From assembly GCF_003711225.1 (NCBI RefSeq), contig NZ_CP031030.1, positions 6,685,501 to 6,749,500 of the forward strand: DNA of 64,000 nt. Reading direction: 5' to 3'. The notes under the pieces are model-generated. The model was not told the DNA's origin, made no database searches, and was given only the letters and a program-made list of their open reading frames with translations. Below, one piece after another: positions 8,380-44,571 of this stretch (positions are counted from its first letter, which is position 1; every line of letters begins with the position of its first letter). Source of the DNA: Runella sp. SP2. Its GTDB lineage: Bacteria > Bacteroidota > Bacteroidia > Cytophagales > Spirosomataceae. Made by a program: the position numbers and the translations under genes.

Positions 8380-11300
8380 ATGGGGGTGGCTTTGTACAAA
8401 AGTCACATTTGCAGAACTGTTACAAAGGTGTATTCTGTGAAGTTGAGTATGCTCTTTGTTATTTTTTTGACAATTAGTACAGCCCAAGCGCAAGTATCTG
8501 GGATTGTATTTAGAGATTTTAACTCAAACGGCCAGCGGGATGCTACTACCCAGCTCAGTGAACCATTGGTCGAAGGGGTGGATGTGCAAGCAACTGATGC
8601 GACGGGGGCTATACAAACCAAAACAACCAACGCAAGTGGAGCGTATAGCTTTACAGGGCTTACCCTGCCAGTACGCATACAATTTAGTAATATCCCTTCA
8701 GGAAATTTTTCTGGGACACACGGCACTGGTTCGTTTTCGAGTGTGCAGTTTTTTAGTGCCAATACTACCACCGCGAATTTAGGGATTTCAAATCCTAACC
8801 TCTACAGCCAAACTGCGCCACCGCTGGTAACAAACTGTTACGTTGTGGGGTCTGCGGTAGGTAATACCCAAGACGCTATGATTGGGTTTTCGTATTCGGC
8901 AGGTTGTATTGATGCCGACCTCAATGGGGTTTGCGACACAGGTTCTGCCAATACTTTCACAACGCCCGCCCCTTCGCACATTGCAACAGCTACCCAAGTT
9001 GGATCAACTTGGGGACTAGCTTATCACCGACCCTCAAAGTCGGTATTTGCAGCCTCTTTTATGAAACGGCACGTTGGCTTCAAACAAAAAGGTAAAACAG
9101 GGGTAATATTTAGAATTGAAAACCCAGAAGCTGCGACACCAACCATTACTGAATATGTTGATTTAGACGCTTTAGGTTTTGCCACAAAGCCCCCTTCAGG
9201 TGATCCTCACCCCAATGATAATGCCACGGTGGCTGCATGGGACAGAGATGCTAACTCATGGGATTGGGTAGGTAAAATGAGCTTGGGAGACCTAGATATT
9301 GATGAAACAGAGCAAAATATTTATGTAGTAAACCTATACGATCGAAAGCTTTATAAAATTCCAATCAAGTCAACTCCTGTGGTTGCAGGAGATATTACGA
9401 GCGTTGATATTCCCAAACCCGCCACAAATGATGTGGACAATCGCCCGTTTGCGTTGGGAATCAATAATGGAAAAGTTTATGTGGGAGTTACCAATACGCA
9501 GGAATCAACAGTGACGGGTTGGACAGGTGGCGTAACTACGACTGTAAAAGGAACTCGGACAGGATTGGCCATGTATGTTTATGAGTATGATCCTAACACA
9601 GGATTCAATACAACTGCGGTGCTAAATGCCCCACTAACTTACACCCGTAAAAATGCGATTAACTCTAGTTTTAAACCTACAAGTGGAACGTGGAACCCTT
9701 GGGTGAACGTTTTTACCGCTTTTGACCGTGAAAATAATGGCACTCAGTGTATCGGGGATAGGGCTTATCCTCAGCCATGGCTTACTGATATTGAGTTTGA
9801 TAATGGACAAATGATACTTGGGGTCAGGGATAGATTTGGAGACCAAACAGGATATAATGCCCTTGAACCAGTGACCAATACTGTCAATCAAAGTACCCCT
9901 TGCCAGAACCAGGGGGAAACGGGGCAGTTTAATGGAGTTGCTGTAGGTGATTTATTACGAGCTTCGCGTACTGGAAGTGCAACCACATGGACGCTTGAGT
10001 CGAACGGAAGTAGTGGGGGTGTTACTACCTCAGGAGCAGGTAATGCAAATGGGCCAGGAGGAGGTGAATTTTATTATCAACACAGCTACGACAACTTTCA
10101 CTTTGACATTGGAAACGGAGGTCTTGTGCAAGTGCCTGGGCATAGTAGTGTTGTAGAAACAGCCTATGATGTTATTAACTTAACAGCCGAAGCATATAAC
10201 GGAGGGATTTTGTGGCATAACAATACCACAGGGAGAAGAATGCAACAGTTTAAAGTGTTTGATACCTCTGGCGGGTCTCCCTTTGCACCAGATAACAACA
10301 CGCTTGCTAAAGCAAATGGATTGGGAGACCTAGTGGCACTCTCATCGTTACCGACCATTGAAATCGGAAATAGAATATGGAAAGATGCTAATAAAAACGG
10401 AATCCAAGACCCTGCCGAGGTGGGAGTCGATGGGGTTGTCATAGAGCTTTTTGAAGGTACAACGACTACAGGATCCCCTACTCAGACGGTTACTTCTGCA
10501 ACACTCAATGGCCAAAAAGGAACGTGGTATTTTACAAATTTAAAAGCCAACACCGATTATAGAATCAAAGTCAAAACTGCCTTTGGTACGGGGGCATTGG
10601 CTACGTGTGCGGCATTTTCGCCCACGGGCCAAGGTACAGTGTTAACAGATAACGACACTGACACAGGCACAATTGCGCTAAAAACAGGGAATCTCGGTGA
10701 GAATAACCACTCATTTGATATCGGGGTAATTGAGCCTGTTGGTTCAATAGGAAACTATATTTGGAAAGATGCCAACGATAACGGCAAACAAGATAGTGGG
10801 GAAGCAGGTCAAGCAGGCGTTATCGTTCAATTATTACAGGGTGCAACTGTATTGGCAACTGATACAACGGATGCCAATGGTTTGTACGGGTTCTCTAATT
10901 TGGATGCTGGAAGCTACCAAGTCAAAATTTTAGTGACTTCTCTACCAGCAGGCTGTGTTATTTCTTCAAAATCCAACGCAGCAGGAGTAGCCGATAGCCT
11001 TGATTCTGATTTTGACGCAGCAACTGGCTTGAGCCAATCAGTCACAATTACGCCTACGGGAACGGGTATTGCCAAAGATAACCCAACAATCGACGGGGCA
11101 CTTTATTCACCCCTAGGCTCTATCGGAAACTACGTTTGGAAAGATACCAATAACAACGGCAGACAAGACAGCGGAGAAACAGGACAAGCGGGTATCATTT
11201 TGCAGCTTTTGCAAGGTTCAAGTGTGGTTGATGAAGATACGACCGATGTGAATGGTTTCTACAGTTTCAACAACCTAACCTCGGATACCTATCAAGTTAA

Positions 11301-14300
11301 GTTGCTTTTGACATCTCTACCAGCGGGTTGCGTTATTTCTTCAAAACCTAATGCCGCAGGAGTAGCCGATACGCTAGATTCTGATTTTAATGCGGCAGGT
11401 TTGAGTCATTTGATTACAATTGATACTTCAAAACCAGCGGCTGATACCTTGCGCAACAACCCTCACATCGACGCGGCGCTTTTCTCACCCAAAGGCTCAA
11501 TTGGAGATTATGTGTGGAAAGACCTGAACGATAACGGTATCCAAGACGATGGCCCAACGGGTGTAAAAGACGTGATTGTGGAGCTATACAAAGGAAGTAC
11601 AACAGGTAGCCCCATCGCGAAAGATACAACCGATGCCAGTGGTGCCTATGGTTTTACCAACTTAGATGCGGGCGATTATTACGTCAAAGTCGTTGTTACA
11701 AGTCTGCCAGTAGGTTGTGTGATTAGTACTAAACAAGATTTGGGCGGCGACGATACCAAAGATTCGGACGTGAATCCAGTCACTGGTTTTAGTGCAAAAA
11801 TCACGTTAGACCCAACCTTGACGGGACTTTCTAAAGACAACCCAACGATAGATGCGGCCTTGTATTCGCCTAAAGGGTCGATTGGGAATTACGTTTGGAA
11901 AGACCAAAACGACAATGGTATTCAAGATGCAAGCGAATTAGGAGTTGCAGGGGTAATTGTTCAATTGTTAAACTCGACAACCAGCGCGGTGCTGGCAACG
12001 GATACAACAGATGCCAACGGTTTGTATTTGTTCCCCAACTTGTCGAGTGGCAGTTACCAAGTGAAAATCGTGACAACGAGCCTACCCGCAGACTGTGCAC
12101 TTAGCAGCCAACAAGACTTGGGTGGCGATGATGAGAAAGATAGCGACTTTAACTCAACCACAGGTTTAAGTCAAGCTGTAACCATCGATGCTTTAGGCAC
12201 GGGTACAGCAAAAGATAATTTAACGGTGGATGCGGCCTTGTATTCACTCAGAGGCTCAATCGGAGACTTTGTTTGGAAAGACCAAAACGACAATGGTATC
12301 CAAGACCCGAACGAATCACCAGTGGCAGACGTAATTGTGCAGTTGTTGCAAGGAGGGAATGTGATAGCGACGGACACGACAAACTTCAACGGTTTGTATT
12401 TGTTCCCTAACTTACCAAACGGTACTTACCAAGTAAGAATCGTAACAACCAGTCTGCCTGATAGCTGTGTGATTAGCAGTAAGAAAGATTTGGGTGGTGA
12501 CGATACAAAAGACAGTGATTTTGACCCAACAACGGCCTTGAGTCCACCTATTACCATCAACGTTTCGGGAACGGGTATCGCCAAAGACAATCCAACGATA
12601 GATGCGGCATTGTCAACACCGAAAGGCTCTATCGGAGACTACGTATGGAAAGACCAAAACAACAATGGTGTTCAGGATTCAGGTGAACCAGCAGTGGCGG
12701 GTGTAATTGTTCAGTTGTTGAATTCAACAACCAGTGCTGTTTTGGCAACTGATACGACTGATGCGAGTGGATTGTACTTATTTACGAACTTGAAGTCAGG
12801 CACTTATCAAGTGAAAATCGTAACGACGAGTTTACCAGCGGGTTGTGTGATTAGTAGTCAACAAAACCTGGGCGGCGATGATACGAAAGACAGTGATTTT
12901 GACCCAACCACAGGTTTGAGCCAAGTGGTAACGATTGATGCCAAAGGCACGGGCATAGCCAAAGACAACCCAACGGTGGACGGCGCATTGTTCTCGCCTA
13001 AAGGTTCGATTGGCGACTACGTTTGGAAAGATTTGAATAACAATGGTATCCAAGATTCGGGAGAGCCAGGGGTATCGGGAGTAATCATTCAATTGTTGCA
13101 AGGGTCAACGGTTGTTGCGACGGACACGACGAACGCCCAAGGATTGTACTTGTTCTCAGATTTATCAAGTGGCACGTACCAAGTGAAAATTGTGACAACC
13201 AGTCTGCCTGATAGCTGTGTGATTAGCAGCAAGCAAGATTTAGGCGGTGACGACACCAAAGACAGTGATTTTAACCCAACGACAGGTTTGAGCCAAACGG
13301 TGACAATCAATGCAACGGGTACAGGCTTGGCGAAAGATAACCCAACCATTGATGCGGGCTTGTTTACGCCAAAAGGTTCCATCGGAGATTACGTTTGGAA
13401 AGACCAGAATGACAATGGTATCCAAGATTCGGGCGAACCAGGAGTGGCGGGCGTAATTATTCAGTTGTTGAAAGGGGCGACGGTTGTAGCAACCGATACA
13501 ACGGACGCGAATGGTTTGTATTTGTTCCCGAACTTGTTGAGTGGTACTTACAAAGTGAAAATTGTAACGACGAGTTTACCAGCGGGTTGTGTGATTAGTA
13601 CCAAAAAAGACTTGGGCGGCGATGATACGAAAGACAGCGATTTTGACCCAACCACAGGTTTGAGCCAAGTGGTAACGATTGATGCCAAAGGCACGGGCAT
13701 AGCCAAAGACAACCCAACGGTGGACGGTGCGTTGTTCTCGCCCAAAGGTTCGATTGGCGACTACGTTTGGAAAGATTTGAATGACAATGGTATCCAAGAT
13801 TCGGGAGAGTCAGGGGTATCGGGAGTGATCATTCAATTGTTGCAAGGGTCAACGGTTGTTGCGACGGACACGACGAACGCGCAAGGGTTGTATTTATTCT
13901 CCAACCTGTCGAGTGGTAGTTACCAAGTGAAAATTGTAACAACCAGCCTGCCACCGAATTGTGTGATTAGTACTAAGCAAAATCAAGGAAGTGACGTTAC
14001 GAAAGACAGTGACTTTAACCCAACGACAGGTTTGAGCCAAACGGTGACAATCAATGCAACGGGTACAGGCTTGGCGAAGGACAACCCAACGATTGATGCG
14101 GGCTTGGTGGTACCGTGTGTTAAATCGAGCGTTACTTTATCGAATGCGCCAGTTTGTTCGGCAGATGTACAAACGTATAGTATTACCTTCACGGTGACCA
14201 ATAAATTGGGCATTGTGAAAGCGAACAAAGGTACGTTGAGCGGTAACAATCCTTACACCGTCACAGGTATCCCGTCGGGAGCAAGTGTAATCATTACCGA

Positions 14301-15303
14301 TAGCTTGAGTGCTGTCTGTAAATCAGATACGACGATTGTTGGGCCTAACTGTAACTGTAACCCACCAGTACCAGTGTTATTGACGCCAAGTATGGCTGCT
14401 TGTATTGGTGATACCTTCCCGACCTTAAAAGCGACGGTGGTAGGTCTGGCAACGGTAGAATGGTTTAGCCAACAAACAGGCGGCACAGTGTTATCAACGG
14501 GCTTGAGTTTCAAACCAAGTGGCACAGTGACGGGTACAACGACCTACTACGCCCAAGCGCGCAGTACTGACCAAACCTGTCCAACGGCAGTGAGTACCAG
14601 CCGCGTCCCTGCGACGGTTAATGCCCAAACTTGTATTGACACGGTTGACTTAGCATTGAAGAAATCGATTAATACGAAAATAGCACAGGTAGGTGATGTA
14701 CTTACTTATACGCTAAAAGTTTGGAATGAATCGAACAAAAATGCGACGGGGGTAGAAGTAGCCGATAGTATCGCGACAACGGTACAGTTCATTGCGGGCA
14801 GTTTTGTGGCCAGCCGTGGCAGCGCTACAATCAGTGGTAATGCCATCAAGTGGACGATTGGTAACATTGCTGCTAATGGTGACACGGTGACGTTGCGCTA
14901 CCAAGTGCGAGCAACCCAAGAAGGACTGCACTTTAACACGGCTGAAATTTCGAAAGTTGATCAAAAAGATGTGGATTCGACGCCAGGTAACGGCAACCCA
15001 GCTGAAGACGATATCGACCGTCAGTGTTTTAGCGTGCCGTTCAAGGTGTGCCCAACCAACCAAGTGGAAGCATCGGTACCTGCACTTTACACAAATGTTC
15101 AATGGTTTAAAGACGGAGGAACAACGCCAGTAGCAACGGGCAATGTGGTTCTGTTTAGTGAAGTGGGTATCTACACTTTCACCGCAACGAATCAGACTTG
15201 CCCAGCAGGAGGATGTTGCCCAATCATCATTGAGCCAGGCGTAAACTGTTGCCCAGAGGATTTGTGCGTGCCATTTACAATTCAAAAAAGAAAGAAAAAG
15301 TAA
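8380..15303 (+). CDS. Giant secreted SdrD_B/DUF11 repeat protein 1
   Basis: About 2,307 residues from the ATG at 8380, chosen because it puts the signal peptide (VKLSMLFVIFLTISTAQA, cleavage after about residue 37) near the N-terminus; a start at 8248 is also open. One SdrD_B-type unit (GIVFRDFNSNGQRD) comes first. A beta-propeller-like region follows (about 145-655) with WGLAYHRPSKSVFAASFMKRH and LDIDETEQNIYVVNLYDRKLYKI. Ten tandem SdrD_B units follow (about 661-1908), each with GSIG(D/N)YVWKDxNxNGxQD, a likely Ca-binding loop. The last approximately 400 residues are the module shared by all six array proteins: two Ig-like blocks, a DUF11 domain (DLALKKSINTKIAQVGD) and a Cys-rich end CCPEDLCVPFTIQKRKKK. 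Presumably an extended surface or matrix adhesin. The ligand and anchoring mode are not shown. A strong terminator follows. Confidence 0.88.
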   Translation: MGVALYKSHICRTVTKVYSVKLSMLFVIFLTISTAQAQVSGIVFRDFNSNGQRDATTQLSEPLVEGVDVQATDATGAIQTKTTNASGAYSFTGLTLPVRIQFSNIPSGNFSGTHGTGSFSSVQFFSANTTTANLGISNPNLYSQTAPPLVTNCYVVGSAVGNTQDAMIGFSYSAGCIDADLNGVCDTGSANTFTTPAPSHIATATQVGSTWGLAYHRPSKSVFAASFMKRHVGFKQKGKTGVIFRIENPEAATPTITEYVDLDALGFATKPPSGDPHPNDNATVAAWDRDANSWDWVGKMSLGDLDIDETEQNIYVVNLYDRKLYKIPIKSTPVVAGDITSVDIPKPATNDVDNRPFALGINNGKVYVGVTNTQESTVTGWTGGVTTTVKGTRTGLAMYVYEYDPNTGFNTTAVLNAPLTYTRKNAINSSFKPTSGTWNPWVNVFTAFDRENNGTQCIGDRAYPQPWLTDIEFDNGQMILGVRDRFGDQTGYNALEPVTNTVNQSTPCQNQGETGQFNGVAVGDLLRASRTGSATTWTLESNGSSGGVTTSGAGNANGPGGGEFYYQHSYDNFHFDIGNGGLVQVPGHSSVVETAYDVINLTAEAYNGGILWHNNTTGRRMQQFKVFDTSGGSPFAPDNNTLAKANGLGDLVALSSLPTIEIGNRIWKDANKNGIQDPAEVGVDGVVIELFEGTTTTGSPTQTVTSATLNGQKGTWYFTNLKANTDYRIKVKTAFGTGALATCAAFSPTGQGTVLTDNDTDTGTIALKTGNLGENNHSFDIGVIEPVGSIGNYIWKDANDNGKQDSGEAGQAGVIVQLLQGATVLATDTTDANGLYGFSNLDAGSYQVKILVTSLPAGCVISSKSNAAGVADSLDSDFDAATGLSQSVTITPTGTGIAKDNPTIDGALYSPLGSIGNYVWKDTNNNGRQDSGETGQAGIILQLLQGSSVVDEDTTDVNGFYSFNNLTSDTYQVKLLLTSLPAGCVISSKPNAAGVADTLDSDFNAAGLSHLITIDTSKPAADTLRNNPHIDAALFSPKGSIGDYVWKDLNDNGIQDDGPTGVKDVIVELYKGSTTGSPIAKDTTDASGAYGFTNLDAGDYYVKVVVTSLPVGCVISTKQDLGGDDTKDSDVNPVTGFSAKITLDPTLTGLSKDNPTIDAALYSPKGSIGNYVWKDQNDNGIQDASELGVAGVIVQLLNSTTSAVLATDTTDANGLYLFPNLSSGSYQVKIVTTSLPADCALSSQQDLGGDDEKDSDFNSTTGLSQAVTIDALGTGTAKDNLTVDAALYSLRGSIGDFVWKDQNDNGIQDPNESPVADVIVQLLQGGNVIATDTTNFNGLYLFPNLPNGTYQVRIVTTSLPDSCVISSKKDLGGDDTKDSDFDPTTALSPPITINVSGTGIAKDNPTIDAALSTPKGSIGDYVWKDQNNNGVQDSGEPAVAGVIVQLLNSTTSAVLATDTTDASGLYLFTNLKSGTYQVKIVTTSLPAGCVISSQQNLGGDDTKDSDFDPTTGLSQVVTIDAKGTGIAKDNPTVDGALFSPKGSIGDYVWKDLNNNGIQDSGEPGVSGVIIQLLQGSTVVATDTTNAQGLYLFSDLSSGTYQVKIVTTSLPDSCVISSKQDLGGDDTKDSDFNPTTGLSQTVTINATGTGLAKDNPTIDAGLFTPKGSIGDYVWKDQNDNGIQDSGEPGVAGVIIQLLKGATVVATDTTDANGLYLFPNLLSGTYKVKIVTTSLPAGCVISTKKDLGGDDTKDSDFDPTTGLSQVVTIDAKGTGIAKDNPTVDGALFSPKGSIGDYVWKDLNDNGIQDSGESGVSGVIIQLLQGSTVVATDTTNAQGLYLFSNLSSGSYQVKIVTTSLPPNCVISTKQNQGSDVTKDSDFNPTTGLSQTVTINATGTGLAKDNPTIDAGLVVPCVKSSVTLSNAPVCSADVQTYSITFTVTNKLGIVKANKGTLSGNNPYTVTGIPSGASVIITDSLSAVCKSDTTIVGPNCNCNPPVPVLLTPSMAACIGDTFPTLKATVVGLATVEWFSQQTGGTVLSTGLSFKPSGTVTGTTTYYAQARSTDQTCPTAVSTSRVPATVNAQTCIDTVDLALKKSINTKIAQVGDVLTYTLKVWNESNKNATGVEVADSIATTVQFIAGSFVASRGSATISGNAIKWTIGNIAANGDTVTLRYQVRATQEGLHFNTAEISKVDQKDVDSTPGNGNPAEDDIDRQCFSVPFKVCPTNQVEASVPALYTNVQWFKDGGTTPVATGNVVLFSEVGIYTFTATNQTCPAGGCCPIIIEPGVNCCPEDLCVPFTIQKRKKK
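10350..14106 (+). repeat. Tandem SdrD_B coding repeats in array gene 1
   Basis: Ten units of about 372-384 bp encode the GSIGDYVWKDxNDNGIQD domain. Units 7-8 and 9-10 form a higher-order duplication: the stretch around 12915 recurs around 13659, a 744-bp shift, with few base changes. Earlier units are more diverged, so the 3' units are the most recently homogenised. Confidence 0.85.
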
Positions 15304-15324
15304 AATAAGGCTTTAGCCAATCGC

Positions 15325-15359
15325 GCCCCCCTTTTTCATCGGAAAAAGGGGGGCTTTTT
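15325..15359 (+). terminator. Intrinsic terminator after array gene 1
   Basis: GCCCCCCTTTTT (15325-15336) pairs with AAAAAGGGGGGC (15343-15354), then five T residues. It lies 21 bp past the stop codon. Confidence 0.85.
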
Positions 15360-15629
15360 GTTGGTATTCATTTTAAAAAATAAAATTTAACCAAAATTAG
15401 TATTGCACTTAAATTTGGTACATTTATTGCTAGTATATTTAATAGTTGATTTTGGATAATATTTTTACGACAGTTGCTTTCAAAGGCATCCTAAACTGTG
15501 GTTTAGGGATGCTTATATCTGCTTTTTAGCCATTTCGGCACTATTTTTGCACTTGTTCTTACTGTACGTTTACAAATGCGATAACTAGCATTTGGTATAT
15601 TCTTTTCCTACTCTATTATACATACATTT
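15360..15629. other. Intergenic region between array genes 1 and 2
   Basis: An AT-rich stretch with no gene seen. The upstream box TTGGTATATTCTTTT (15592-15606) lies 23 bp before the gene 2 start. Confidence 0.4.
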
Positions 15630-18407: not shown

Positions 18408-18562
18408 ATATCCTAAAATTGAAAATTATCAGTTTGGCGTAATTGTTGGTAGGGATAATACTACGTTTTTGGGTTAATATTTTGAGAAATAGAATATAAT
18501 TAATTAGTGAATGTATTCTATTATTCAAAGTAAATTACCTTTTTTGGTAAAAAAAAGTGCTT

Positions 18563-18577: not shown

Positions 18578-18635
18578 TTAAGAATGGATACGTAATCATA
18601 AATGTATCCTTTTACCCTATTCTTGGCAAAGCTTC

Positions 18636-31193: not shown

Positions 31194-31214
31194 TATTTGT
31201 AGTTAAGAATACCA

Positions 31215-34400: not shown

Positions 34401-37400
34401 AACAAAACCAGCACTTTCGATAACGAGCACTACATGTAATGGCACAACGGTAACTGCAACATTCACGGCAACGGCGGGTGCAACGGTAACCGCAAGCGTA
34501 GGAACGATATCGGGAAATCAAGTAACGGGTATCCCAAGTGGACAGACATTTAGCATTACTGCTTCTCTAAATGGATGTGACTCGACCGTGTCAGATTCTA
34601 AAACCTGCGTACCCAATTGCGATTTGAATGCAACTTTAGGAACTATCAAATGTATCGCAGGTCAAAATACGCCTGAGGTAACAGATGATTCATTTACGTT
34701 TGGTTTAACAGTAACCGGGACAGGAGGTGCAAGCAATTTGTGGGAAGCTGTTTATAACGGAACAGTCATTCAAACAGGTGCATATGGTCAAACCAAAACC
34801 GTAACAGTAGGATATGCTACTTGGAACGGGGCATCAAGCATGGCCGTTGTTGTTCGTGACAAAGACAATACAAGTTGTACCGATAACATAACTGTCCAAG
34901 TACCAAGTTGTTCACCTGCGCCCTGTACAGGCTTTAAGTTTACCAATATCGTAGCAAGTTGTGAAGGTGGTCTTCATAAAATTTGTTTAGATGTATCAGG
35001 AACTGGCGGCCGTAAATGGGCGATTAGTTTAAAGCATAGTAATGATTTTAACGTACCAGGTATTGCATTTGCAAACGGTACGGGCGACCAAACTGGGGTT
35101 TGTGGAACAATCAGCAGTACTGATTTTGCAATATTACAAGCGTTTGACGCAGATGATTTTATTGTATGGGGAATGCTTGAGTTAGCAGATGGTACGCCAA
35201 TTTTTGGCACGGGCTGCGAAATCGATTCGGTTGTTCGTTATTCTCCGTGCATCACCTGTCAAGCCCCAACGCCAGTGGGTGTAGGTGCGTCGGTATGTTC
35301 AGGTAGTAGTGCTACGTTGACGGCGAGTGGTTGTACCACAGGTTACACAACGATATGGTTCAGCGATGCAGGATTGGGAACACAAGTAGGAACGGGTGCA
35401 AGTTACATGACGCCTGTGTTGACGACAAATACCAATTATTATGTGTCATGTGTAAAAGACGGCGACGCCACGTGTAAGAGTAGCGGAGTGACAGTTACTG
35501 CAACCGTAAAACCCAAGCCAACGATTAGTGTGACATCAACGACCTGCAATCAAGCGGGTACGTTGTACGATGTAGCTTTTACGGCTACGTCGGGAGCAAC
35601 AGTTACGGCAGATAAAGGAACAGTGACGGGCAGCACGGTTGTGGGAGTTCCATCGGGCCAAACGGTGAAATTGGTTGTTACGTTGAATGGTTGCAAAGAT
35701 TCGACCACAGCGACTAAAAATTGTTCTCCAACCTGCCAAGCCCCAACGCCAGTGGGTGTAGGTGCGTCGGTATGTTCAGGTAGTAGTGCTACGTTGACCG
35801 CGAGTGGTTGTACCACCGGTTACACAACGATTTGGTTCAGCGATGCAGGATTGGGAACACAAGTAGGAACGGGTGCAAGCTACACGACGCCTGTATTGAC
35901 AGCAAATACCAATTATTATGTGTCATGTGTAAAAGACGGCGACGCCACGTGTAAGAGTAGCGGAGTAATGGTAACTGCGACGGTTAAACCCAAGCCAACG
36001 ATTAGTGTGACATCAACGACCTGTAACCAAGCAGGGACGCAATACGATGTCGCTTTTACGGCTACGTCGGGAGCAACAGTTACGGCAGATAAAGGAACGG
36101 TGACGGGCAATACAGTCGTGGGAGTTCCATCGGGTCAAACGGTGAAATTGGTTGTTATGTTGAATGGTTGCAAAGATTCGACCACAGCGACCAAAAACTG
36201 TTCGGTGCCTTGTGTTGAGTCAACGTTTAGCTTGGTTGGGACGCCAGCTTGTTCTGCCGATTACTCAACCTATTCATTGACGATTCAGGTCAATAATAAA
36301 ATGGGCATTGTTAAAACTAACAAAGGAATACTTTCGGGTAATAATCCATACACTATTACTGGTATTCCAGCAGGGGAACCAGTGACAATTACCGATAGTC
36401 TAAGTGTAATTTGCAAGGCCGACACTATGATTGTTGCTCCTAATTGTAACTGTAACCCAGCCTTGCCTCAGTTGTTGACGCCAAGTTTGACGGCTTGTAT
36501 CGGGGATACTTTCCCAACTTTAAAGGCAACGGTGGTAGGACTGGCAACGGTAGAATGGTTTAGCCAACAAACGGGCGGAACAGTATTAGCGACGGGCTTG
36601 AGTTACAAGCCAAGTGGTACGGTGACGTCTAATACGGTGTTCTACGCGCAAGCACGCAGTACTGATCCGACCTGTCCAACGGCGGTGAGTACAAGCCGCG
36701 TCCCAGCGACAATCAATGCGCAAGACTGTACAAAAGAAGTGGACTTAGCATTGTCTAAGTCTATTAGCAAGAAAATAGCTCAGATTGGCGATGTGTTGAC
36801 CTATACTTTAAAAGTATGGAACGAATCCGTGACAAATGCCACGGGAGTCTCGGTGACAGACAGCATCGCGACTACAGTGCAGTTTGTGAGTGGAAGTTTT
36901 GTAGCGAGTCGTGGTAGTGCGACGATAAGTGGCAATGTAATAAAGTGGAACATTGGTAGTATATCGGCCAATGGCGACACAGTGACATTGACTTACCAAA
37001 TCAAAGTAACGCAAGAAGGAGTTCATTTCAATACGGCGGAGATTTGTACGACCAACGAGAAGGATGTAGATTCGACGCCGTGTAACCACGATGATACCGA
37101 AGATGATATCGACCGCGAATGTTTTACGGTGCCAGTGAAGCTATGCCCAGGGGAAGTCGTGGAAGTAAATATTCCTGCGAAATATACCAACGTGCAATGG
37201 TTTAAAAATGGCGGTACAACGCCAGTAGCGAGTGGTAACTCGGTGTTGTTCTCCGATTTGGGAAGTTACACTTTCACAGCCACGAACCAGACGTGTCCAG
37301 CGGAAGGCTGTTGTCCAGTTATCATCGAAGCTGGTACGAACTGTTGCCCAGTTGATTTGTGTATTCCGTTTACGATTAAACAAACCAAGAAGGCGGGTAA

Positions 37401-37410
37401 GAAGCTGTAA
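31459..37410 (+). CDS. Giant secreted Cys-rich Ig-like repeat/DUF11 protein 5
   Basis: A 1,983-residue protein. Signal peptide MLGLLLLVGFLTATTTYA, cleavage after about residue 44. It has no SdrD_B or propeller region. After two N-terminal domains with paired Cys, residues about 265-1055 are built from 158-residue units (CTAPTPTGTGASVCP..., SGCTTGYTATWFSDSGLNTQ, YYVSCVKDADATC, LTYSVTVT) whose DNA repeats with an exact 474-bp period. A unique section (about 1055-1265) contains NCDLNATLGTIKC. Two units of a related 159-residue type follow (about 1267-1585). Then comes the shared module ending CCPVDLCIPFTIKQTKKAG. The Cys pattern suggests disulfide-stabilised Ig-like domains outside the cell. Its last about 325 residues differ from protein 6 at only about six positions, while its 3' flank matches gene 4. 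Confidence 0.88.
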   Translation: MNHLSFLLQTKNQPDRKTKLTNFYLNMLGLLLLVGFLTATTTYAQCTLTAEVTNITCNNMTTTTTADDKFSFTLTVNSTSSTAETGGYVTVSINGTNVGGQNIGEAKDFTNQYNISGGVLNVTITAGSGNCSTTTTITPPQACSPGAGCTWDPLNLNPSYVTVTVQRDCKGTADESDDEVSGTFSVTGIPAGYAAELDRKLDANGNGKEHIEGGISNGQVVNWGPYNVNTVKYPGQNGFVLWFMLEGITDCLGDYFVMIPDCPACTAPTPTGTDANICSGETAILMASGCTSGYTATWFSNSTLTSQLGTGDSYETPALTTTTNYYVSCVKDGDATCKSTGVLVKATVKPLPTLTAGTPTCAQNGLTYSVTVTSNGTISADAGTVSGTTVSNIPAGTDVTITATLNGCTKEVTVSSPTCQIPCTAPTPTGIGASVCPDNTATLTASGCTTGYTATWFSDSGLNTQEGTGNSFTTPVLTATTDYYVSCVKDADASCMSTGVLVKATVKPLPTLTAGTPTCAQNGLTYSVTVTSNGSITADAGTVSGTTVSNIPAGTDVTITATLNGCTKEVTVSSPTCQIPCTAPTPTGTGASVCPDNTATLTASGCTTGYTATWFSDSGLNTQEGTGNSFTTPVLTATTDYYVSCVKDADATCMSTGVLVKATVKPLPTLTAGTPTCAQNGLTYSVTVTTNGSITADAGTVNGTTVSNIPAGTDVTITATLNGCTKEVTVSSPTCQIPCTAPTPTGTGASVCPDNTATLTASGCTTGYTATWFSDSGLNTQEGTGNSFTTPVLTATTDYYVSCVKDADATCKSTGVLVKATVKPLPTLTAGTPSCAQNGLTYSVTVTTNGSITADAGTVNGTTVSNIPAGTDVTITATLNGCTKEVTVSSPTCQIPCTAPTPTGTGASVCPDNTATLTASGCTTGYTATWFSDSGLNTQEGTGNSFTTPVLTATKNYYLSCVKTGDATCKSSGVTVTATVKTKPALSITSTTCNGTTVTATFTATAGATVTASVGTISGNQVTGIPSGQTFSITASLNGCDSTVSDSKTCVPNCDLNATLGTIKCIAGQNTPEVTDDSFTFGLTVTGTGGASNLWEAVYNGTVIQTGAYGQTKTVTVGYATWNGASSMAVVVRDKDNTSCTDNITVQVPSCSPAPCTGFKFTNIVASCEGGLHKICLDVSGTGGRKWAISLKHSNDFNVPGIAFANGTGDQTGVCGTISSTDFAILQAFDADDFIVWGMLELADGTPIFGTGCEIDSVVRYSPCITCQAPTPVGVGASVCSGSSATLTASGCTTGYTTIWFSDAGLGTQVGTGASYMTPVLTTNTNYYVSCVKDGDATCKSSGVTVTATVKPKPTISVTSTTCNQAGTLYDVAFTATSGATVTADKGTVTGSTVVGVPSGQTVKLVVTLNGCKDSTTATKNCSPTCQAPTPVGVGASVCSGSSATLTASGCTTGYTTIWFSDAGLGTQVGTGASYTTPVLTANTNYYVSCVKDGDATCKSSGVMVTATVKPKPTISVTSTTCNQAGTQYDVAFTATSGATVTADKGTVTGNTVVGVPSGQTVKLVVMLNGCKDSTTATKNCSVPCVESTFSLVGTPACSADYSTYSLTIQVNNKMGIVKTNKGILSGNNPYTITGIPAGEPVTITDSLSVICKADTMIVAPNCNCNPALPQLLTPSLTACIGDTFPTLKATVVGLATVEWFSQQTGGTVLATGLSYKPSGTVTSNTVFYAQARSTDPTCPTAVSTSRVPATINAQDCTKEVDLALSKSISKKIAQIGDVLTYTLKVWNESVTNATGVSVTDSIATTVQFVSGSFVASRGSATISGNVIKWNIGSISANGDTVTLTYQIKVTQEGVHFNTAEICTTNEKDVDSTPCNHDDTEDDIDRECFTVPVKLCPGEVVEVNIPAKYTNVQWFKNGGTTPVASGNSVLFSDLGSYTFTATNQTCPAEGCCPVIIEAGTNCCPVDLCIPFTIKQTKKAGKKL
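32251..34350 (+). repeat. 474-bp exact-period coding repeat in array gene 5
   Basis: Units begin at 32251, 32725, 33199, 33673 and 34147 (TGTAC(T/C)GCCCCAACGCCAAC), every 474 bp = 158 codons. Units 2-4 are nearly identical. The first is more diverged and the fifth keeps only its first part. The spacing never drifts, so the units arose by in-frame unequal exchange. Confidence 0.93.
35257..36210 (+). repeat. 477-bp coding repeat (two units) in array gene 5
   Basis: Two near-identical units begin at 35257 and 35734 (Cys-Gln-Ala-Pro-Thr-Pro-Val-Gly...), 477 bp apart. They are related to, but distinct from, the 474-bp units upstream. Confidence 0.85.
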
Positions 37411-37866
37411 TATTTGTAGTTAAGAATACCAAGAGAAGGGGTGGTGCTACGGCATCATCCCTTCTCTTTTTTTTATCTGGTGCGATTTTTGTGAGTAAAG
37501 ATGCCTTTTTGGGAGGGAGGGATAGGGCTTCTATTTTTTAGCTCAAATCTGTGATTAAGTATAAAAAAAACGTATATAGGCTATTTTATTTTCTACTTGG
37601 CATGTTTTTTGGAGTATTTTTTAGAAGGTAAAAAGGGTATTTTTTGGCGAAAAATTAGATTATTTATACCAGAGTATGGCTATAAAAAATAATTTGTTTT
37701 GATAGGAGAGGATATGGATTTTTGATTACAGAATATTTTTTAAACAGTTTTATTTCGTGGGTTATAATGATTTTATACCATGAATATACCAGGGCAAACA
37801 GACCGTTAGAAGCCTGCAAATAATATTTGTCCTTTATTTCACTACGTTTTTGATAAGAAATAATTT
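37411..37866. other. Intergenic region between array genes 5 and 6
   Basis: 456 bp, AT-rich, with no gene seen. The first about 90 bp, including the terminator at 37432-37474, is almost identical to the DNA after gene 4. A TTGGCATGTTTTTTG box at 37597-37611 resembles those of the other array genes but is much further (255 bp) from the start codon. Confidence 0.6.
37432..37474 (+). terminator. Intrinsic terminator after array gene 5
   Basis: Same hairpin as at 31215-31257: AGAGAAGGG...CCCTTCTCT arms with a TACG loop, then eight T residues. Confidence 0.88.
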
Positions 37867-40800
37867 ATGAAAAAGTTAACTACCTTACTTATTGCCTCGT
37901 TGCTTTTTAGCAGGTTACTTAATGCACAAACGTGCAAACTCACAGATTATCTTTATTTGAACGATCCTCAGGATTATCAAACACAAGGTTTTGTTCATAA
38001 ACTTAAAATTGGTACTGGTGGTACACTGACAGAAGTTCCAAACGGCTTAGGGAATATTCCTTGGTTTCCGCAAGGTGGTGGTTTAGGCTCTCCGCACGGA
38101 TTAGGACAAGATTTGAATGGCAATCTTTATATCGGTGCAAATTCAGATACTGGACCAATTGCTAAAATTACCTGCGAGGGTACTTTAGTCAACCTAAATT
38201 TTATCAATGATGCTGGTTATAATATCGTCTCCAAAGATGGGTATTTATTTGTAAACTCTTCGAGTAACAACCGCATCAGTCGTTATGCGCTTTGCGATGG
38301 TTCTGCTCAAGGATACGTAACCCTCAATGGAAGTACTCAGCTTGATTGGGGGCTTTTTATTAGCTCAAATGGCACTTTTTATGCAACGACAGGCCTTGAT
38401 CCCGCATTTGCCAGTGCTACTGGTACGAAAGCTATTTATAGATTTACCCCTACTGATGCTGATTTTGTTAATCATACAAATTACTCTCCATTGGTTTCTG
38501 CCAACAACGTGCCGCCAGGTGCAGCAGCAGCGAATCTACCTATTCAGTCTGCATGGCTTTGGGGTATTACTGCCGATGATGCGGGTAATATGTATGTAAT
38601 AGCTGAAGACCCTTGGTTTAATTATCAAGGTACCACTTGGACGGGCTTTACTTGGATATTAAAATATGATCCTAATGGTAATTTAGTAGCGTGGACAAAA
38701 GATGAACAAACAACCACGCCTACAGTTGGATTTAAAGGTGGTCGTGGTATTCTTTATTATCCTGCCGCAGATGTGTTGTATATTGCTGCTGGTCCTCATG
38801 GAGATTGTGTTTCAATGATTAAGCCGTCTGATTTATCCTATATGGGTGCGGCAGCAGGGAATGTTCCAAATCAAAACCCTAAAACCCTCCGAATTGCTTC
38901 TGAGGCTTGCCCAGTGAATGCTTCAACTAAAGTTGATACAACACTTTGTAACGTTAAAGTGGGAGATAAAATCTTCCTTTCTCAGATCGTTGGAGCTTGT
39001 AACGCCCCAATTTGCGGGGGAACCTGGACGGCTGCGCCAACAAACGTAGGTATGTCATTTAATGAATGTGACCTTAGTTTTACTGTTACTGGATTAAACG
39101 GATGCGGAAAGTACACGCTTACTAATGTTGGAGGTACATGTGGTGATTTTACTATTGAGGTAAACGTTGATTTTGCCAACATAACTGCATCGGTGATAAC
39201 TGGTAATCAAACAGTGTGTGCAGGTACGGATCCTGTTGCTTTTTCGGAAAGTACCCCAGCTGCGGGTAGTGGGACGGTTAGCTACCAATGGCAAAAAAGT
39301 ACCACTTCGTGCACTACAGGTTTTACTGATATTGCAGGGGCTACCAATAGTACCTATGATTCTCCAGTTGTTTCGCAGACTACGTACTATCGGGTAGTGA
39401 CTTCGGTCGTAGGAGGATGTAACTTCCCACAAAAAAAATGTAGTGATACAAGTAATTGTGTGACCGTTACGGTAATTCCTGCTCCTGCATTTGGGAACCT
39501 GACCGTTTCAAATCCAACTTGTACTGGACCCACTGCCAACAACAACGGTGTAATCACCCTTGTGTCGGCTACGAATACTGATAAATGTGGAATTAGCACC
39601 TTAGGGGCAGCAACATACGATGGCCCCGCGTATGCTTCGGCCACAGCTTACTCCACCAATAAAAACGTAAAAACGGGTATTCCAAATACGGGTGGGACAT
39701 ATATATTACGGTTGTTTAATGGCTCAAACGATTGCTATAAAGACACGACGATAACTATTGCGCCAGTGGTATGTTGTACGCTTCCCGTAGCCTCAGCCAC
39801 TCCTCAAAAACAAACGATTTGCGTTGGTGGAACAGCCTCAGCCTTCACGGCAACGCCAAGCACGGGTGTAGAATATAAATGGTATGGCCCACTGACGAAT
39901 ACCTCAGGCAGTTTGGGTACGGCCATCAGCGGCGCAACGACTGCGACTTTTACGCCAAGTGGCGCAGCTTTAAGTACTGCGGGGTCAAAATACTATGCAG
40001 TAGTAGTGAATACCACGGGCGATGTGACGTGTGCGGATACGGCCTTTGTCCAGTTGGATGTGAGCAAAATTACAGCTCCCGCAGTGACGGCTCTTTGCCA
40101 CGCCAACGGTACGCCTGAAGATGGTACAGATGATTACATGACGTTTAGCATTCATGTGTCCACTGAGCCCATGAGCACCAATAAATTTACGGTAACGGCC
40201 ACGCAAGGCGGGAATCCACTAGCAGTAACGTTATCAAACGGCAGCGCGGCAACTTCGGTAAATTGTGGCTTGAACACCCCATTACGTACGCCAGTAGGAA
40301 GCGCGGGCAAAGGCAACGTGACCTTAACAATTACGGACAATGTAACAGGCTGCTCGACGACTGTAGTTGTGACCGACCCAGGAACTTGTGCCGTAACTTG
40401 CGTGCAAGGAACGCCTAGTACAGTGACGTATGAGTATGGTACCCAAGTGGACATCACAGAGCTAAACTCATTGCCGATTATTATACCAAAGTTTGACGAA
40501 CAAGGCGGCACTCGGGTGCTAACATCGGTGAAATTAGAATATTTAGTGGGTGGCAAAACGGCCTTTGTGTTTGAAAACAGCGCAGCCCAATCGCAGTCTT
40601 TCAGTGCGACTGCCAGTTCGGAGGCAACGATTAATTTGAATGGGACAGACATCGCGACGAATATGTTAGAGATGGCGATTCCTCAAACGACGTTGCCAGG
40701 AGGTATTTTGGTACCAGCGACGGGTAATTGGGCGGGAGATAGTATTCCATCGCCAGTACCCACGCCAACAACCTTGGGTCGCATGGAGTCGTGGGTAAGT

Positions 40801-43800
40801 GATTATTTGTCTGTTTTCAAAGACCCTCGGGTGGATGCGCGTTGGGTGACGAATGCGACGGGCGATGCGACGGATGACGATGACATGTATATCAACCCGA
40901 TGATAGCGGATTCGGCGAGTGGAACGTTTACGTATAATACAGCATTGGCGCTGGCTCCCTTTATTGGGACGGGCAATGTGCCTTTAGAAGTGAGTACGTT
41001 ATCTGGCCTTAGTTTGACAGGCGGTGGAGGCAACTTGCGTGCTTTACAACGGACGCGGGCGTATGCGAGTGCGAAGGTGACATATACATTTGAATGTATT
41101 CTGTGCACCAAACCAGTGGCATTAGCGACGCCGAAAGTACAGACAATTTGCGTAGGCAGTACAGCAACGGCCTACACAGCCACGCCAAGTACAGGCGTCG
41201 ACTACAAGTGGTATGGCCCATTGGCAGACACAACGAGCAGCTTAGGCACAGCCGTGAGTGGGGCAACAAGTACGACGTTTACACCAAGTGGCGCAGCATT
41301 AACCACGGCAGGAACGAAGTATTACGCAGTGGTGGTAAACACGACGGGAGATGTGAATTGTGCGGACACAGCTTATGTACAATTGGTAGTGAACGCCAAG
41401 CCAGTAATTACCGACGGCAGTGCGACGATTTGCGCAGGCGAGTCAGTTGATTTGACTACGAAAATCACGAATTACGATACCTACTTGAGTCCAGTGTGGA
41501 CAGTAGGTACGGCGGGTGGTACGGCCGTAACAATGCCAAGTTCAGTGAAGCCAACGGGCACAACGACGTATGTATTGGTAGCACAAAATGCAGCTGGTTG
41601 TAAAGACACGGCGAATGTGGTAGTGACGGTGAATGTCAAACCAAATGCAGGCAAAGATACGACCTTGGCTTGTGTGAATGCCGCGACAAATACTTTGGCG
41701 ACAAGTTATACCTTAGTCCCAAGTCCCGCAGGAGGAAGTTGGACACAATTAGGGACAACTCCAGCGACGGCGACTATTTCTGGCAACAACGTAACGGGTA
41801 TGAGTGTGGCAGGAACTTACCAGTTTATTTACACAACAACGGCAGGTTGCAAAGACACGGTAGCAGTAACAGTAGCACCGTGCGCAGGTTGTGTGAAACC
41901 AAATGCAGGTGCTGATGCAGCGAATGTATGCCAACCAACGAGTACGGCGAAGCTGACGGCAGTGACGACAGGAGGCACGTGGGCACCGATTGGTAGTCCC
42001 GCCAATCCAAGCGCAGCAACGATAGACGCCAATGGCAATATCAGCGGTTTGAATGCAGCGGGCACGTATAAGTTTGTCTATTCGGTAACGAGCGGTGGTC
42101 AAACGTGTACGGACACGGCGCAAGTGACTGTACTTGCCAAGCCAGTAATTGCCGACGGTTCTGCGACGATTTGCGCAGGCGAGTCAGTGGATTTGACGTC
42201 TAAGATTACCAATTACAATACGTATTTGAGTCCAGTGTGGACAATAGGAACAGCAAATGGCACGGCCGTAGCAACGCCAAATTCAGTAAAACCAACTGGC
42301 ACAACGACTTACGTATTGGTGGCACAAAATGCAGCAGGTTGCAAAGACACGGCGAATGTGGTAGTAACGGTGAATGTCAAACCAAGCGCGGGTAAAGACA
42401 CGACCTTGGCGTGTGTGAATGCGGCGACAAATACTTTGGCAACAAGTTATACTTTAGTGCCAAGCCCCGCAGGAGGAAGCTGGTCACAATTAGGGACAAC
42501 ACCAACGACGGCAGCGATTACGGGTAACAACGTGACAGGCATGACTATCGCAGGAACGTACCAGTTTATTTACACAACAACGGCAGGTTGCAAAGACACG
42601 GTCGCAGTAACGGTCGCGCCATGTGCAGGTTGTGTAAAACCAAATGCGGGAGCTGATGCAGCGAATGTATGCCAACCAATCAAAACAGCGAAGTTGACGG
42701 CAGTGACGACAGGTGGCATGTGGGCACCAATTGGCAGTCCAGCCAACCCGTCAGCAGCAACGATAGATGCCAGTGGCAACATCAGTGGCTTGAATGCAGT
42801 GGGAACATACCGTTTTGTTTACTCAGTAATGAGCGGCGGTCAAACGTGTACGGACACGGCGCAAGTGATTGTACTTGCCAAGCCAGTGATAGCCGACGGC
42901 AGCGCGACGATTTGCGCAGGAGAGTCAGTGGATTTAACTTCTAAGATTACCAATTACAATACGTACTTGAGTCCAGTGTGGACGGTAGGTACGGCGAATG
43001 GCACGGTAGTGACGACGCCAGCGTCTGTGAAACCAACTGGTACAACGACGTATGTGTTGGTGGCACAAAATGCGGCTGGTTGTAAAGACACAGCGAATGT
43101 GGTAGTGACGGTGAATGCCAAACCAAGCGCGGGTAAAGATACGACCTTGGTTTGTTCAAACGGCAATGTGCAATCAAGCGTACAATTATCAGGGACGCCG
43201 ACGGGAGGCACATGGTCAGCATTGACGGGCAATCCGACGGGCACGACGGTAAACAGTGCTGGCTTGGTGAGTATCACCAACGCCACTGCCCAAGGCAAGT
43301 CGTTTAATTTTGTTTATTCGGTAAATGGTTGTCAAGATACGGTGAAGGTGATTGTCCCAGTTTGTCAACAACCTTGTATTAAATCGTCGATTAGTTCAGC
43401 GGCTCCTGTTTGTTCAAACGATGCTCAGACGTATAGTTTTACCTTCACAGTGACCAACAAATTGGGCATTGTGAAAGTGAGTAAAGGTACATTGAGCGGA
43501 AGTAATCCATACACAGTAACAGGTATTCCATCGGGTCAGAACGTAATTATTACCGATAGTTTGAGCGCAATTTGTAAGACTGATACGACGATAGCGGGCG
43601 TTAATTGTAACTGTAATCCAGCCTTGCCCCAATTGTTGACGCCAAGTTTGACGGCTTGTATCGGTGATACTTTCCCAACGTTGAAAGCGACGGTGGTGGG
43701 TCTTGCGACGGTAGAATGGTTTAGCCAACAAACGGGCGGAACAGTATTAGCGACGGGCTTGAGTTTCAAGCCAAGTGGTACGGTGACGTCTAATACGGTG

Positions 43801-44571
43801 TTCTACGCGCAAGCACGCAGTACTGATCCGACCTGTCCAACGGCGGTGAGTACAAGCCGCGTCCCAGCGACAATCAATGCGCAAGATTGTACAAAAGAAG
43901 TGGACTTAGCATTGTCGAAGTCTATTAGCAAGAAAATAGCTCAGATTGGCGATGTGTTGACCTATACTTTAAAAGTATGGAACGAATCAGCGACAAATGC
44001 CACGGGCGTCTCGGTGACAGACAGCATCGCGACTACAGTGCAGTTTGTGAGTGGAAGTTTTGTAGCGAGTCGTGGTAGTGCGACGATAAGTGGCAATGTA
44101 ATAAAGTGGAACATTGGTAGTATATCGGCCAATGGCGACACAGTGACGTTGACTTACCAAATCAAAGTAACGCAAGAAGGCATACATTTCAATACGGCGG
44201 AGATTTGTACGACCAACGAGAAGGATGTAGATTCGACGCCGTGTAATGACGATGATACCGAAGATGACATCGACCGCGAATGTTTTACGGTGCCAGTGAA
44301 ACTATGCCCAGGGGAAGTAGTGGAAGTAAATATTCCTGCGAAATATACCAATGTACAATGGTTCAAAAATGGCGGTACAACGCCAGTAGCGAGTGGTAAC
44401 TCGTTGTTGTTGTCTGATTTGGGAAGTTACACTTTCACAGCCACGAACCAGACGTGTCCAGCGGAAGGCTGTTGTCCAGTTATCATCGAAGCTGGTACGA
44501 ACTGCTGCCCAGTTGATTTGTGTATTCCTTTTACAATCAAACAAACCAAGAAGGCGGGTAAGAAGCTGTAA
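37867..44571 (+). CDS. Giant secreted propeller/Ig-like/DUF11 protein 6
   Basis: A 2,234-residue protein. Signal peptide MKKLTTLLIASLLFSRLLNA, cleavage after about residue 20. A propeller-like N-terminal domain (about 21-350) has SPHGLGQDLNGNLYIG, WGITADDAGNMYVIAEDP and YYPAADVLYIAAGPHGDC. Ig-like domains follow. A section at about 840-1070 (IIIPKFDEQGGTRVLTSVKLEYLVGG ... NLRALQRTRAYASAKVTYTFE) resembles the choice-of-anchor E type. A 247-residue repeat (KPVIADGSATICAGESVDLT..., then AGKDTTLACVNAATNTL..., then GADAANVCQP...) runs for two full copies and part of a third. The shared module ends CCPVDLCIPFTIKQTKKAG. It is the last gene of the array, followed at once by a terminator. A beta-rich extracellular protein is certain in outline; its function is not shown. 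Confidence 0.88.
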   Translation: MKKLTTLLIASLLFSRLLNAQTCKLTDYLYLNDPQDYQTQGFVHKLKIGTGGTLTEVPNGLGNIPWFPQGGGLGSPHGLGQDLNGNLYIGANSDTGPIAKITCEGTLVNLNFINDAGYNIVSKDGYLFVNSSSNNRISRYALCDGSAQGYVTLNGSTQLDWGLFISSNGTFYATTGLDPAFASATGTKAIYRFTPTDADFVNHTNYSPLVSANNVPPGAAAANLPIQSAWLWGITADDAGNMYVIAEDPWFNYQGTTWTGFTWILKYDPNGNLVAWTKDEQTTTPTVGFKGGRGILYYPAADVLYIAAGPHGDCVSMIKPSDLSYMGAAAGNVPNQNPKTLRIASEACPVNASTKVDTTLCNVKVGDKIFLSQIVGACNAPICGGTWTAAPTNVGMSFNECDLSFTVTGLNGCGKYTLTNVGGTCGDFTIEVNVDFANITASVITGNQTVCAGTDPVAFSESTPAAGSGTVSYQWQKSTTSCTTGFTDIAGATNSTYDSPVVSQTTYYRVVTSVVGGCNFPQKKCSDTSNCVTVTVIPAPAFGNLTVSNPTCTGPTANNNGVITLVSATNTDKCGISTLGAATYDGPAYASATAYSTNKNVKTGIPNTGGTYILRLFNGSNDCYKDTTITIAPVVCCTLPVASATPQKQTICVGGTASAFTATPSTGVEYKWYGPLTNTSGSLGTAISGATTATFTPSGAALSTAGSKYYAVVVNTTGDVTCADTAFVQLDVSKITAPAVTALCHANGTPEDGTDDYMTFSIHVSTEPMSTNKFTVTATQGGNPLAVTLSNGSAATSVNCGLNTPLRTPVGSAGKGNVTLTITDNVTGCSTTVVVTDPGTCAVTCVQGTPSTVTYEYGTQVDITELNSLPIIIPKFDEQGGTRVLTSVKLEYLVGGKTAFVFENSAAQSQSFSATASSEATINLNGTDIATNMLEMAIPQTTLPGGILVPATGNWAGDSIPSPVPTPTTLGRMESWVSDYLSVFKDPRVDARWVTNATGDATDDDDMYINPMIADSASGTFTYNTALALAPFIGTGNVPLEVSTLSGLSLTGGGGNLRALQRTRAYASAKVTYTFECILCTKPVALATPKVQTICVGSTATAYTATPSTGVDYKWYGPLADTTSSLGTAVSGATSTTFTPSGAALTTAGTKYYAVVVNTTGDVNCADTAYVQLVVNAKPVITDGSATICAGESVDLTTKITNYDTYLSPVWTVGTAGGTAVTMPSSVKPTGTTTYVLVAQNAAGCKDTANVVVTVNVKPNAGKDTTLACVNAATNTLATSYTLVPSPAGGSWTQLGTTPATATISGNNVTGMSVAGTYQFIYTTTAGCKDTVAVTVAPCAGCVKPNAGADAANVCQPTSTAKLTAVTTGGTWAPIGSPANPSAATIDANGNISGLNAAGTYKFVYSVTSGGQTCTDTAQVTVLAKPVIADGSATICAGESVDLTSKITNYNTYLSPVWTIGTANGTAVATPNSVKPTGTTTYVLVAQNAAGCKDTANVVVTVNVKPSAGKDTTLACVNAATNTLATSYTLVPSPAGGSWSQLGTTPTTAAITGNNVTGMTIAGTYQFIYTTTAGCKDTVAVTVAPCAGCVKPNAGADAANVCQPIKTAKLTAVTTGGMWAPIGSPANPSAATIDASGNISGLNAVGTYRFVYSVMSGGQTCTDTAQVIVLAKPVIADGSATICAGESVDLTSKITNYNTYLSPVWTVGTANGTVVTTPASVKPTGTTTYVLVAQNAAGCKDTANVVVTVNAKPSAGKDTTLVCSNGNVQSSVQLSGTPTGGTWSALTGNPTGTTVNSAGLVSITNATAQGKSFNFVYSVNGCQDTVKVIVPVCQQPCIKSSISSAAPVCSNDAQTYSFTFTVTNKLGIVKVSKGTLSGSNPYTVTGIPSGQNVIITDSLSAICKTDTTIAGVNCNCNPALPQLLTPSLTACIGDTFPTLKATVVGLATVEWFSQQTGGTVLATGLSFKPSGTVTSNTVFYAQARSTDPTCPTAVSTSRVPATINAQDCTKEVDLALSKSISKKIAQIGDVLTYTLKVWNESATNATGVSVTDSIATTVQFVSGSFVASRGSATISGNVIKWNIGSISANGDTVTLTYQIKVTQEGIHFNTAEICTTNEKDVDSTPCNDDDTEDDIDRECFTVPVKLCPGEVVEVNIPAKYTNVQWFKNGGTTPVASGNSLLLSDLGSYTFTATNQTCPAEGCCPVIIEAGTNCCPVDLCIPFTIKQTKKAGKKL
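41398..43370 (+). repeat. 741-bp exact-period coding repeat in array gene 6
   Basis: Copies start at 41398, 42139 and 42880 (AAGCCAGT(A/G)AT...), exactly 741 bp apart; the third is partial. The same module and period occur in gene 3 (21933, 22674). Confidence 0.9.

Follow-up and report, generated by a model that had tools for sequence, protein, structure and literature searches.

A ~17-residue cysteine- and proline-bearing C-terminal tail is a candidate portable sorting signal in Runella and other Spirosomataceae

A 64,000-nucleotide stretch of the Runella sp. SP2 genome (contig NZ_CP031030.1, positions 6,685,501 to 6,749,500, hereafter the window) carries six collinear open reading frames (ORFs) at 8248–44571 on the + strand, which encode secreted proteins of 925–2351 residues (proteins 1 to 6) that all finish in the same way. 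Our comparison of these ends with related proteins points to the last ~17–20 residues as the functional unit, a portable C-terminal sorting signal of the Spirosomataceae which replaces a type A or type B domain of the Type IX secretion system (T9SS) and which, we infer, is read by the T9SS; we put the probability of this reading at roughly 0.58. The tail would then probably be an alternative address label for the cell surface. As far as sequence comparison reaches, it shows a tail that is portable, that in its canonical form stands at the C-terminus, that on related proteins is exchanged for type A or type B domains, and that occurs in T9SS-bearing genomes.

The last ~390 residues of the six proteins align end to end, in the block order that a first-pass annotation of this DNA had listed (an NPYTVTG block, a VEWFSQ block, DUF11, a WFK-GGTT block, GCCP, NCCPxxxCxPFTIK and a Lys-rich tail), and its six collinear ORFs, all on the + strand with the common end in each, were confirmed. 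Its description of this end as one undescribed module did not hold. The VEWFSQ block and DUF11 are Pfam domains, the last 17 residues exceed the curated cut-off of a catalogued NCBIfam family, NF058574 (CVP_CTERM, ‘CVP-CTERM putative sorting domain’, 17 positions), and the blocks are separable, the tail also standing behind other last domains and a relative of the last immunoglobulin (Ig)-like block also occurring mid-protein or before type A-like ends. On the alignment, the shared ~390 residues divide into a ~17-residue tail and the Ig-like and DUF11 blocks in front of it, and do not form a single module; these blocks would serve as a spacer stalk, and we do not regard them as the signal. Of 40 related loci, 20, all from Runella, have an NPYT-type block at the start of the last ~400 residues, and 10, all from R. 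defluvii or R. limosa, contain the literal WFSQ.

The tail motif, C-x(3-5)-C-[VI]-P-[FVY]-x-[IV]-x-[KR], spans ~17 residues. The tails of proteins 1–4 score 28–33 bits against the curated NF058574 cut-off of 19 bits, and all six exceed it in a search of the genome, at the following positions:

15244..15294, + strand: CVP_CTERM (NF058574) match of protein 1, 2 residues before the protein end
18342..18392, + strand: CVP_CTERM (NF058574) match of protein 2
24675..24725, + strand: CVP_CTERM (NF058574) match of protein 3
31122..31172, + strand: CVP_CTERM (NF058574) match of protein 4
37339..37389, + strand: CVP_CTERM (NF058574) match of protein 5
44500..44550, + strand: CVP_CTERM (NF058574) match of protein 6

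The Runella genome holds 19 matches above the cut-off, these six and 13 elsewhere, all at the extreme C-end with 1 to 10 residues remaining, and a 20th protein, a subtilase (locus L013), ends below the cut-off in the same kind of motif; across the 20 proteins the columns C-x4-C-x-P are invariant. That no standard sorting domain is visible, as the first-pass annotation had remarked, was borne out, in that none of the 20 matches TIGR04183 (T9SS type A) or TIGR04131 (type B) at E ≤ 0.01, and NF033708 (T9SS type C) is not among the 24 families which they match at the same threshold. In a set of 904 non-redundant ORFs (439,547 residues) the core motif is C-terminal in 144 and internal in 0, and shuffled sequences gave 0.0 matches at the C-end and 0.8 elsewhere per shuffle. 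The tail follows a WFK-type Ig block, a SprB-like repeat (by eye, in other genera), an NPYTVTG-like block (an own-genome ORF at 4.047 Mb), an unrelated domain (L074) or a subtilase domain. Sorted by last domain, the 144 distinct ORFs comprise about 118 WFK-Ig, 23 SprB-like and 3 others (a script gave 103/21/20, which was corrected by eye); many loci of the set were fetched for the motif or the CVP tail itself, and the proportions are therefore not unbiased. Signal-peptide-like starts, called by a simple hydrophobicity rule and no trained predictor, were present in 81 of the 88 tail ORFs whose 5′ end falls inside the locus; two of the other seven are masked, one is signal-peptide-like by eye and four are apparently cut or mis-started. 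Many cysteines surround the tail, and the median net charge after Cys-x-Pro is +4 (251 motif matches, overlapping ones counted twice).

We regard this as a real, portable sorting-type tail; its family is catalogued, yet an exact-name search of the literature library used found no paper on CVP-CTERM, and none was found there on a type D or novel T9SS C-terminal domain class.

The exchange of the tail for T9SS domains is seen on two families of N-terminal domain. We looked for the first, N-domain 1 (from L010), in 222 Spirosomataceae genomes and retrieved the regions surrounding most of the stronger hits, giving 74 ORFs with >90 residues of it: 27 end in a CVP tail, 26 in a type A domain, 13 in a class ending ‘EQLP’ and 2 otherwise; of the other six ORFs, four extend past the retrieved region and two are masked. 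TIGR04183 matches all 26 type A ends, and NF058574 matches 26 of the 27 CVP ends (E ≤ 0.01). The CVP gene immediately precedes its type A paralog, in the same orientation, at 13 loci, and in genus g160, where no genome has a CVP match, all eight distant N-domain 1 homologues fetched have type A ends. For N-domain 2 (from L090), 54 ORFs were recovered, of which 17 end in a CVP tail by pattern (10 canonical and 7 variant, by eye) and 21 in a type B domain, each of the latter matching TIGR04131; the remainder are three CVP-like ends with Ala for Val, one dockerin-like end, eight short copies with neither end (g160) and four ORFs that run off the stretch, three of which are cut copies of genes already counted from a second locus. 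The gene order type B, CVP, PorP/SprF-like occurs in three genomes of one genus (G334, G336 and G339; the PorP/SprF-like calls are by profile in G334 and G339 and by eye in G336, where the CVP motif reads CAP). The usual shuttle layout, according to PMC12618676, has a porP/sprF-like gene immediately after a type B gene.

Two side observations concern the same families. The EQLP class is a third recurring C-terminal type, made of two dockerin-like (by eye) D-x-N-x-DG / QGTxND repeats ending EQLP or EQIP (13 cases: L083:9106-9435(-), L143:3989-4318(+), L085:10025-10354(-), and 10 more); none of the 13 ends has an NCBIfam match and the single one scanned has no Pfam match, and some loci, L083 among them, carry EQLP, CVP and type A genes in that order. 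The eight short N-domain 2 copies lie at g160 loci L258, L259, L261, L262, L266, L289 and L290, in six of which one short copy adjoins a full type B paralog; they are possibly the remains of lost CVP partners.

A search seeded with two patterns of the last Ig-like block (DDID..CF and YT.VQW.K) returned 65 loci. Of these, 58 end in a CVP tail (58/58 by pattern) and come from Runella, Arundinibacter, Persicitalea, Rhabdobacter, Telluribacter and Cytophagales-named metagenome-assembled genomes; the remaining seven match the Ig block at 31–40% identity. In Mesonia and Flavobacterium (L240, L241) the related block (31% identity) is followed directly by a type A-like end, in two more Flavobacterium loci (L242, L245) it stands earlier in an ORF with the same type A-like end (all four ends by eye, without a profile), and in three Spirosoma loci it lies mid-protein (ORF ends masked or cut). 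Because the related block occurs mid-protein and ahead of type A-like ends, we rejected the Ig block as the signal. Occurrence mid-protein or together with a standard sorting domain, which the first-pass annotation had named as counting against a sorting role for the shared end, is thus found for the related Ig block and not for the canonical tail. The idea that a constant end on variable fronts marks a sorting signal keeps its support as a pattern, whilst a module of 390 or 90 residues does not; the candidate signal is ~17–20 residues long and already catalogued.

NF058574 matches (E ≤ 0.001) were found in 3 of 296 genomes sampled across the phylum, 38 of 390 across the order and 89 of the 222 family genomes; all phylum- and order-sample genomes with a match belong to the Spirosomataceae, and among the genomes sampled the tail was found in no other family. 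The T9SS sortase PorU is present in 221 of the 222 family genomes, including all 89 with CVP, a co-occurrence which is consistent with T9SS export and proves nothing. The check proposed beforehand, that hits be C-terminal, carry signal peptides and lie in T9SS-positive genomes, came out largely as predicted, with the canonical tail C-terminal in every examined case and mostly on proteins with signal-peptide-like starts. PorV and PorP occur in all 53 genomes of a panel chosen by hand, 25 with CVP and 28 without. PorP copies are slightly higher with CVP (4.88 vs. 4.25, P = 0.012, not corrected for relatedness, the low counts coming mostly from one CVP-free genus), which we take as a hint only. 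A dedicated PorV paralog was also considered and is not supported, the Runella genome having one PorV-family match and copy numbers being flat with respect to CVP.

If the tail is read by the T9SS, the proteins would be exported by Sec through their signal peptides, and in the periplasm the two cysteines would probably close a small loop. The tail would then present a turn, Cys-x(3-5)-Cys-Val/Ile-Pro, and after it a short end that is rich in Lys/Arg and able to form a strand; this exposed basic end would be recognised by the T9SS via PorV or a PorP/SprF shuttle and the protein transferred across the outer membrane, where it would remain on the surface or be released. A precedent is described in PMC10202324: green fluorescent protein is secreted when it carries no more than the final 22 residues of the HBP35 domain, and the end lysines matter.

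Several findings weigh against T9SS recognition of a C-terminal tail. No CVP match was found in 133 of the 222 family genomes, 132 of which have PorU, and as the T9SS is near universal in the family the co-occurrence of tail and T9SS does not discriminate. PorV copy number does not follow CVP (means 2.24 with and 2.04 without; P = 0.53). The HBP35 case aside, the known T9SS signals described in PMC12618676 are ~100 residues or more. An AlphaFold prediction on 51 aligned tails places an Ig-like sandwich at residues ~12–77 and leaves the tail at a pLDDT (predicted local distance difference test) of about 50, with no confident predicted fold, although such low confidence may also mean too shallow an alignment; the prediction suggests a loose peptide at the end of a stalk domain. 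The best matches of the Ig-like block in the PDB were eukaryotic Ig-type chains (E 0.014, weak), and no T9SS-titled entry stood among the best 50 matches listed.

The remaining points come from a variant of the tail, C-x(3-4)-C-[VIA]-P-[VIL]-[TS]-x-[RK]-I-[IV]-[KRN], which falls below the NF058574 cut-off and has N-domain 2 and its position in common with the canonical form. A profile built from ten variant tails gave 28 matches in 20 of the 222 family genomes (E ≤ 0.01), and at the 22 variant loci inspected the motif was mostly at the C-end, with a few weak matches in ORFs of 28–42 residues. In three hydrolases, however, the variant opens the mature protein, standing between the signal peptide, which it follows immediately, and a Pro-rich linker: two are GDSL-like (L321 and L322, the latter with PF13472 just below cut-off) and one is a PF00144 hydrolase (L323), the motif lying near bases 1501–1551 of each locus, and no C-terminal sorting domain is visible in any of the three. 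An export signal that acts from the C-terminus alone leaves these cases unexplained. They favour a docking tag, in which the C-x(3-5)-C-V-P peptide would bind a surface or outer-membrane receptor from either mature end whilst outer-membrane export proceeds otherwise or not at all. The C-end variant on subtilase L013, which has no Ig stalk, fits such a tag too, as does the C-terminal position of the known T9SS signals (PMC12618676). Nevertheless, a looser motif is C-terminal in 171 of 1120 ORFs, against 3 ORFs with it at the mature N-end and 3 with it elsewhere (shuffled control 0.0 C-terminal and 0.85 elsewhere per shuffle), the three N-terminal cases are all variant and none canonical, and exchange with type A and type B export domains fits an export role better. 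We therefore consider a docking tag unlikely, albeit the best surviving of the alternatives. Somewhat less likely again is a ~17-residue tag, C-x(3-5)-C-[VIA]-P plus a basic strand, which would work from either mature end and be read by the T9SS or its shuttles instead of ~100-residue folded domains; if true, it would be the smallest such signal and the first independent of the C-terminus.

Haft-type pairs of CTERM tails and sorting enzymes are the model for a further alternative, a dedicated tail-recognising sortase or exporter outside the T9SS. The NCBIfam label (a CTERM putative sorting domain) agrees with it, and so does the finding of the tail in one family only and patchily there (89/222), as expected of a signal/partner pair. 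Against this, clustering of 460 neighbouring ORFs at 54 stretches (the window, 13 from its own genome and 40 from other genomes, with some overlap) yielded no candidate exporter or partner among the 25 largest clusters, nor did the 10 flanking window proteins, a search confined to linked genes, with unlinked partners not searched. The neighbours that do recur, named by eye, are Suf-type ABC genes, short-chain dehydrogenases, LytTR-type regulators and TPR kinases, at 8–9 stretches each. The last 40 residues of the six window proteins contain no membrane-like 15-residue stretch (mean hydropathy at most 1.32); 26 of the 144 CVP ORFs pass a hydropathy of 1.6. The dedicated exporter suggested by the first-pass annotation has thus found no candidate among linked neighbours, with PorV numbers flat, and we think it improbable.

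Least likely of all, we think, is a tail without any sorting role. It would then cap C-terminal domains through disulfide staples and have spread as genes were duplicated and converted; the many cysteines and the near-identical ends of genes 5 and 6 speak for this. Against it, the same tail stands on unrelated last domains, and its variant on a subtilase, and the tail is C-terminal and alternates with T9SS sorting domains. The ends in question, the final 1116 bp of the two genes (36295–37410 and 43456–44571), are 92.4% identical in DNA whilst the remainders are unalignable, which would imply that ends were copied between genes, a sign of recent end copying or gene conversion.

The six genes of the window are separated by gaps of 228–456 bp and are arranged as follows:

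8248..15303, + strand: protein 1, 2351 residues; signal peptide, SdrD_B repeats, shared end
15630..18407, + strand: protein 2, 925 residues; a different front with a sub-cut-off Vgb_lyase match, shared end
18636..24731, + strand: protein 3, 2031 residues; N-terminal region common to proteins 1 and 4, SdrD_B and Ig_7 domains, shared end
25029..31193, + strand: protein 4, 2054 residues; N-terminal region with 54% identity to its counterpart in protein 3, shared end
31459..37410, + strand: protein 5, 1983 residues; own repeat front, shared end
37867..44571, + strand: protein 6, 2234 residues; own N-terminal front, shared end

The first ORF opens at 8248, and the start at 8380 given earlier corresponds to its Met45. 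The fronts had been said to differ completely, which needs correcting, as residues 41–760 of protein 3 share 54% identity with protein 4 and its residues 160–760 share 39% with protein 1. Within the shared end the blocks lie as follows, the Pfam scan of the array covering proteins 1–4:

14362..14622 (protein 1), 17466–17726, 23793–24050 and 30246–30503 (proteins 2–4), + strand: Ig_7, CHU_C-associated Ig-like domain (Pfam PF19081), the VEWFSQ block
14647..14991 (protein 1), 17745–18098 (protein 2), 24078–24413 (protein 3) and 30525–30878 (protein 4), + strand: DUF11 (Pfam PF01345)
15007..15300, + strand: last Ig-like block (DDID..WFK..GCCP) plus tail of protein 1
18105–18404, 24438–24728, 30885–31190, 37102–37407 and 44263–44568, + strand: last Ig-like block plus tail of proteins 2–6

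Directly upstream of the array lies a Lipid A acyltransferase-like protein (6504–7613, +; PF03279, 27.6 bits vs. a cut-off of 22.3), and directly behind it a 169-residue protein (44827–45336, +) with a signal-peptide-like stretch, about four LLASLPTVDEN-type repeats and no Pfam match. The array is flanked by a LytTR regulator and a TPR histidine kinase (4970–6070, −, and 61868–63976, +); genes similar to these two, identified by eye, are present again at 9 (regulators) and 8 (kinases) of the 54 CVP-locus stretches.

The candidate T9SS signal proposed here bears on which part of a T9SS domain acts as the signal, as a family that seems to use a ~17-residue tail instead of the whole type A or type B domains on homologous neighbours offers natural swaps. 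If the reading is true, 19 proteins of this genome, several of them giant, would be assigned to a surface export route that TIGR04183 and TIGR04131 searches miss. Amongst catalogued families the closest is NF058574 itself, compared here by family name and description, which matches 19 own-genome C-ends above its cut-off and at that cut-off misses the variant tails of this genome and the N-terminal cases. PEP-CTERM/exosortase-type tails are likewise short C-terminal tails with a basic end, but the six window proteins differ from them in the absence of a membrane-like stretch in the last 40 residues. T9SS type C (NF033708, ChiA) is another minority C-terminal class, and differs in matching none of the 20 own-genome proteins (E ≤ 0.01). 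The likeness to T9SS type A (TIGR04183 / PF18962) lies in the C-terminal position, the signal-peptide proteins that bear it, the basic end residues and the same place on homologous proteins; the CVP tail differs in giving no profile match, in its length (~17 residues vs. ~75–100), in having no Ig fold within the tail and in its conserved Cys and Cys-x-Pro. Type B domains (TIGR04131 / PF13585 CHU_C) alternate with CVP on the second N-domain family, and in three genomes the CVP gene sits between type B and PorP/SprF-like genes, yet again the tail has no profile match and is far from type B length, which is 150–235 residues (PMC12618676). The CVP tail stands beside T9SS types A, B and C, and matches none of them.

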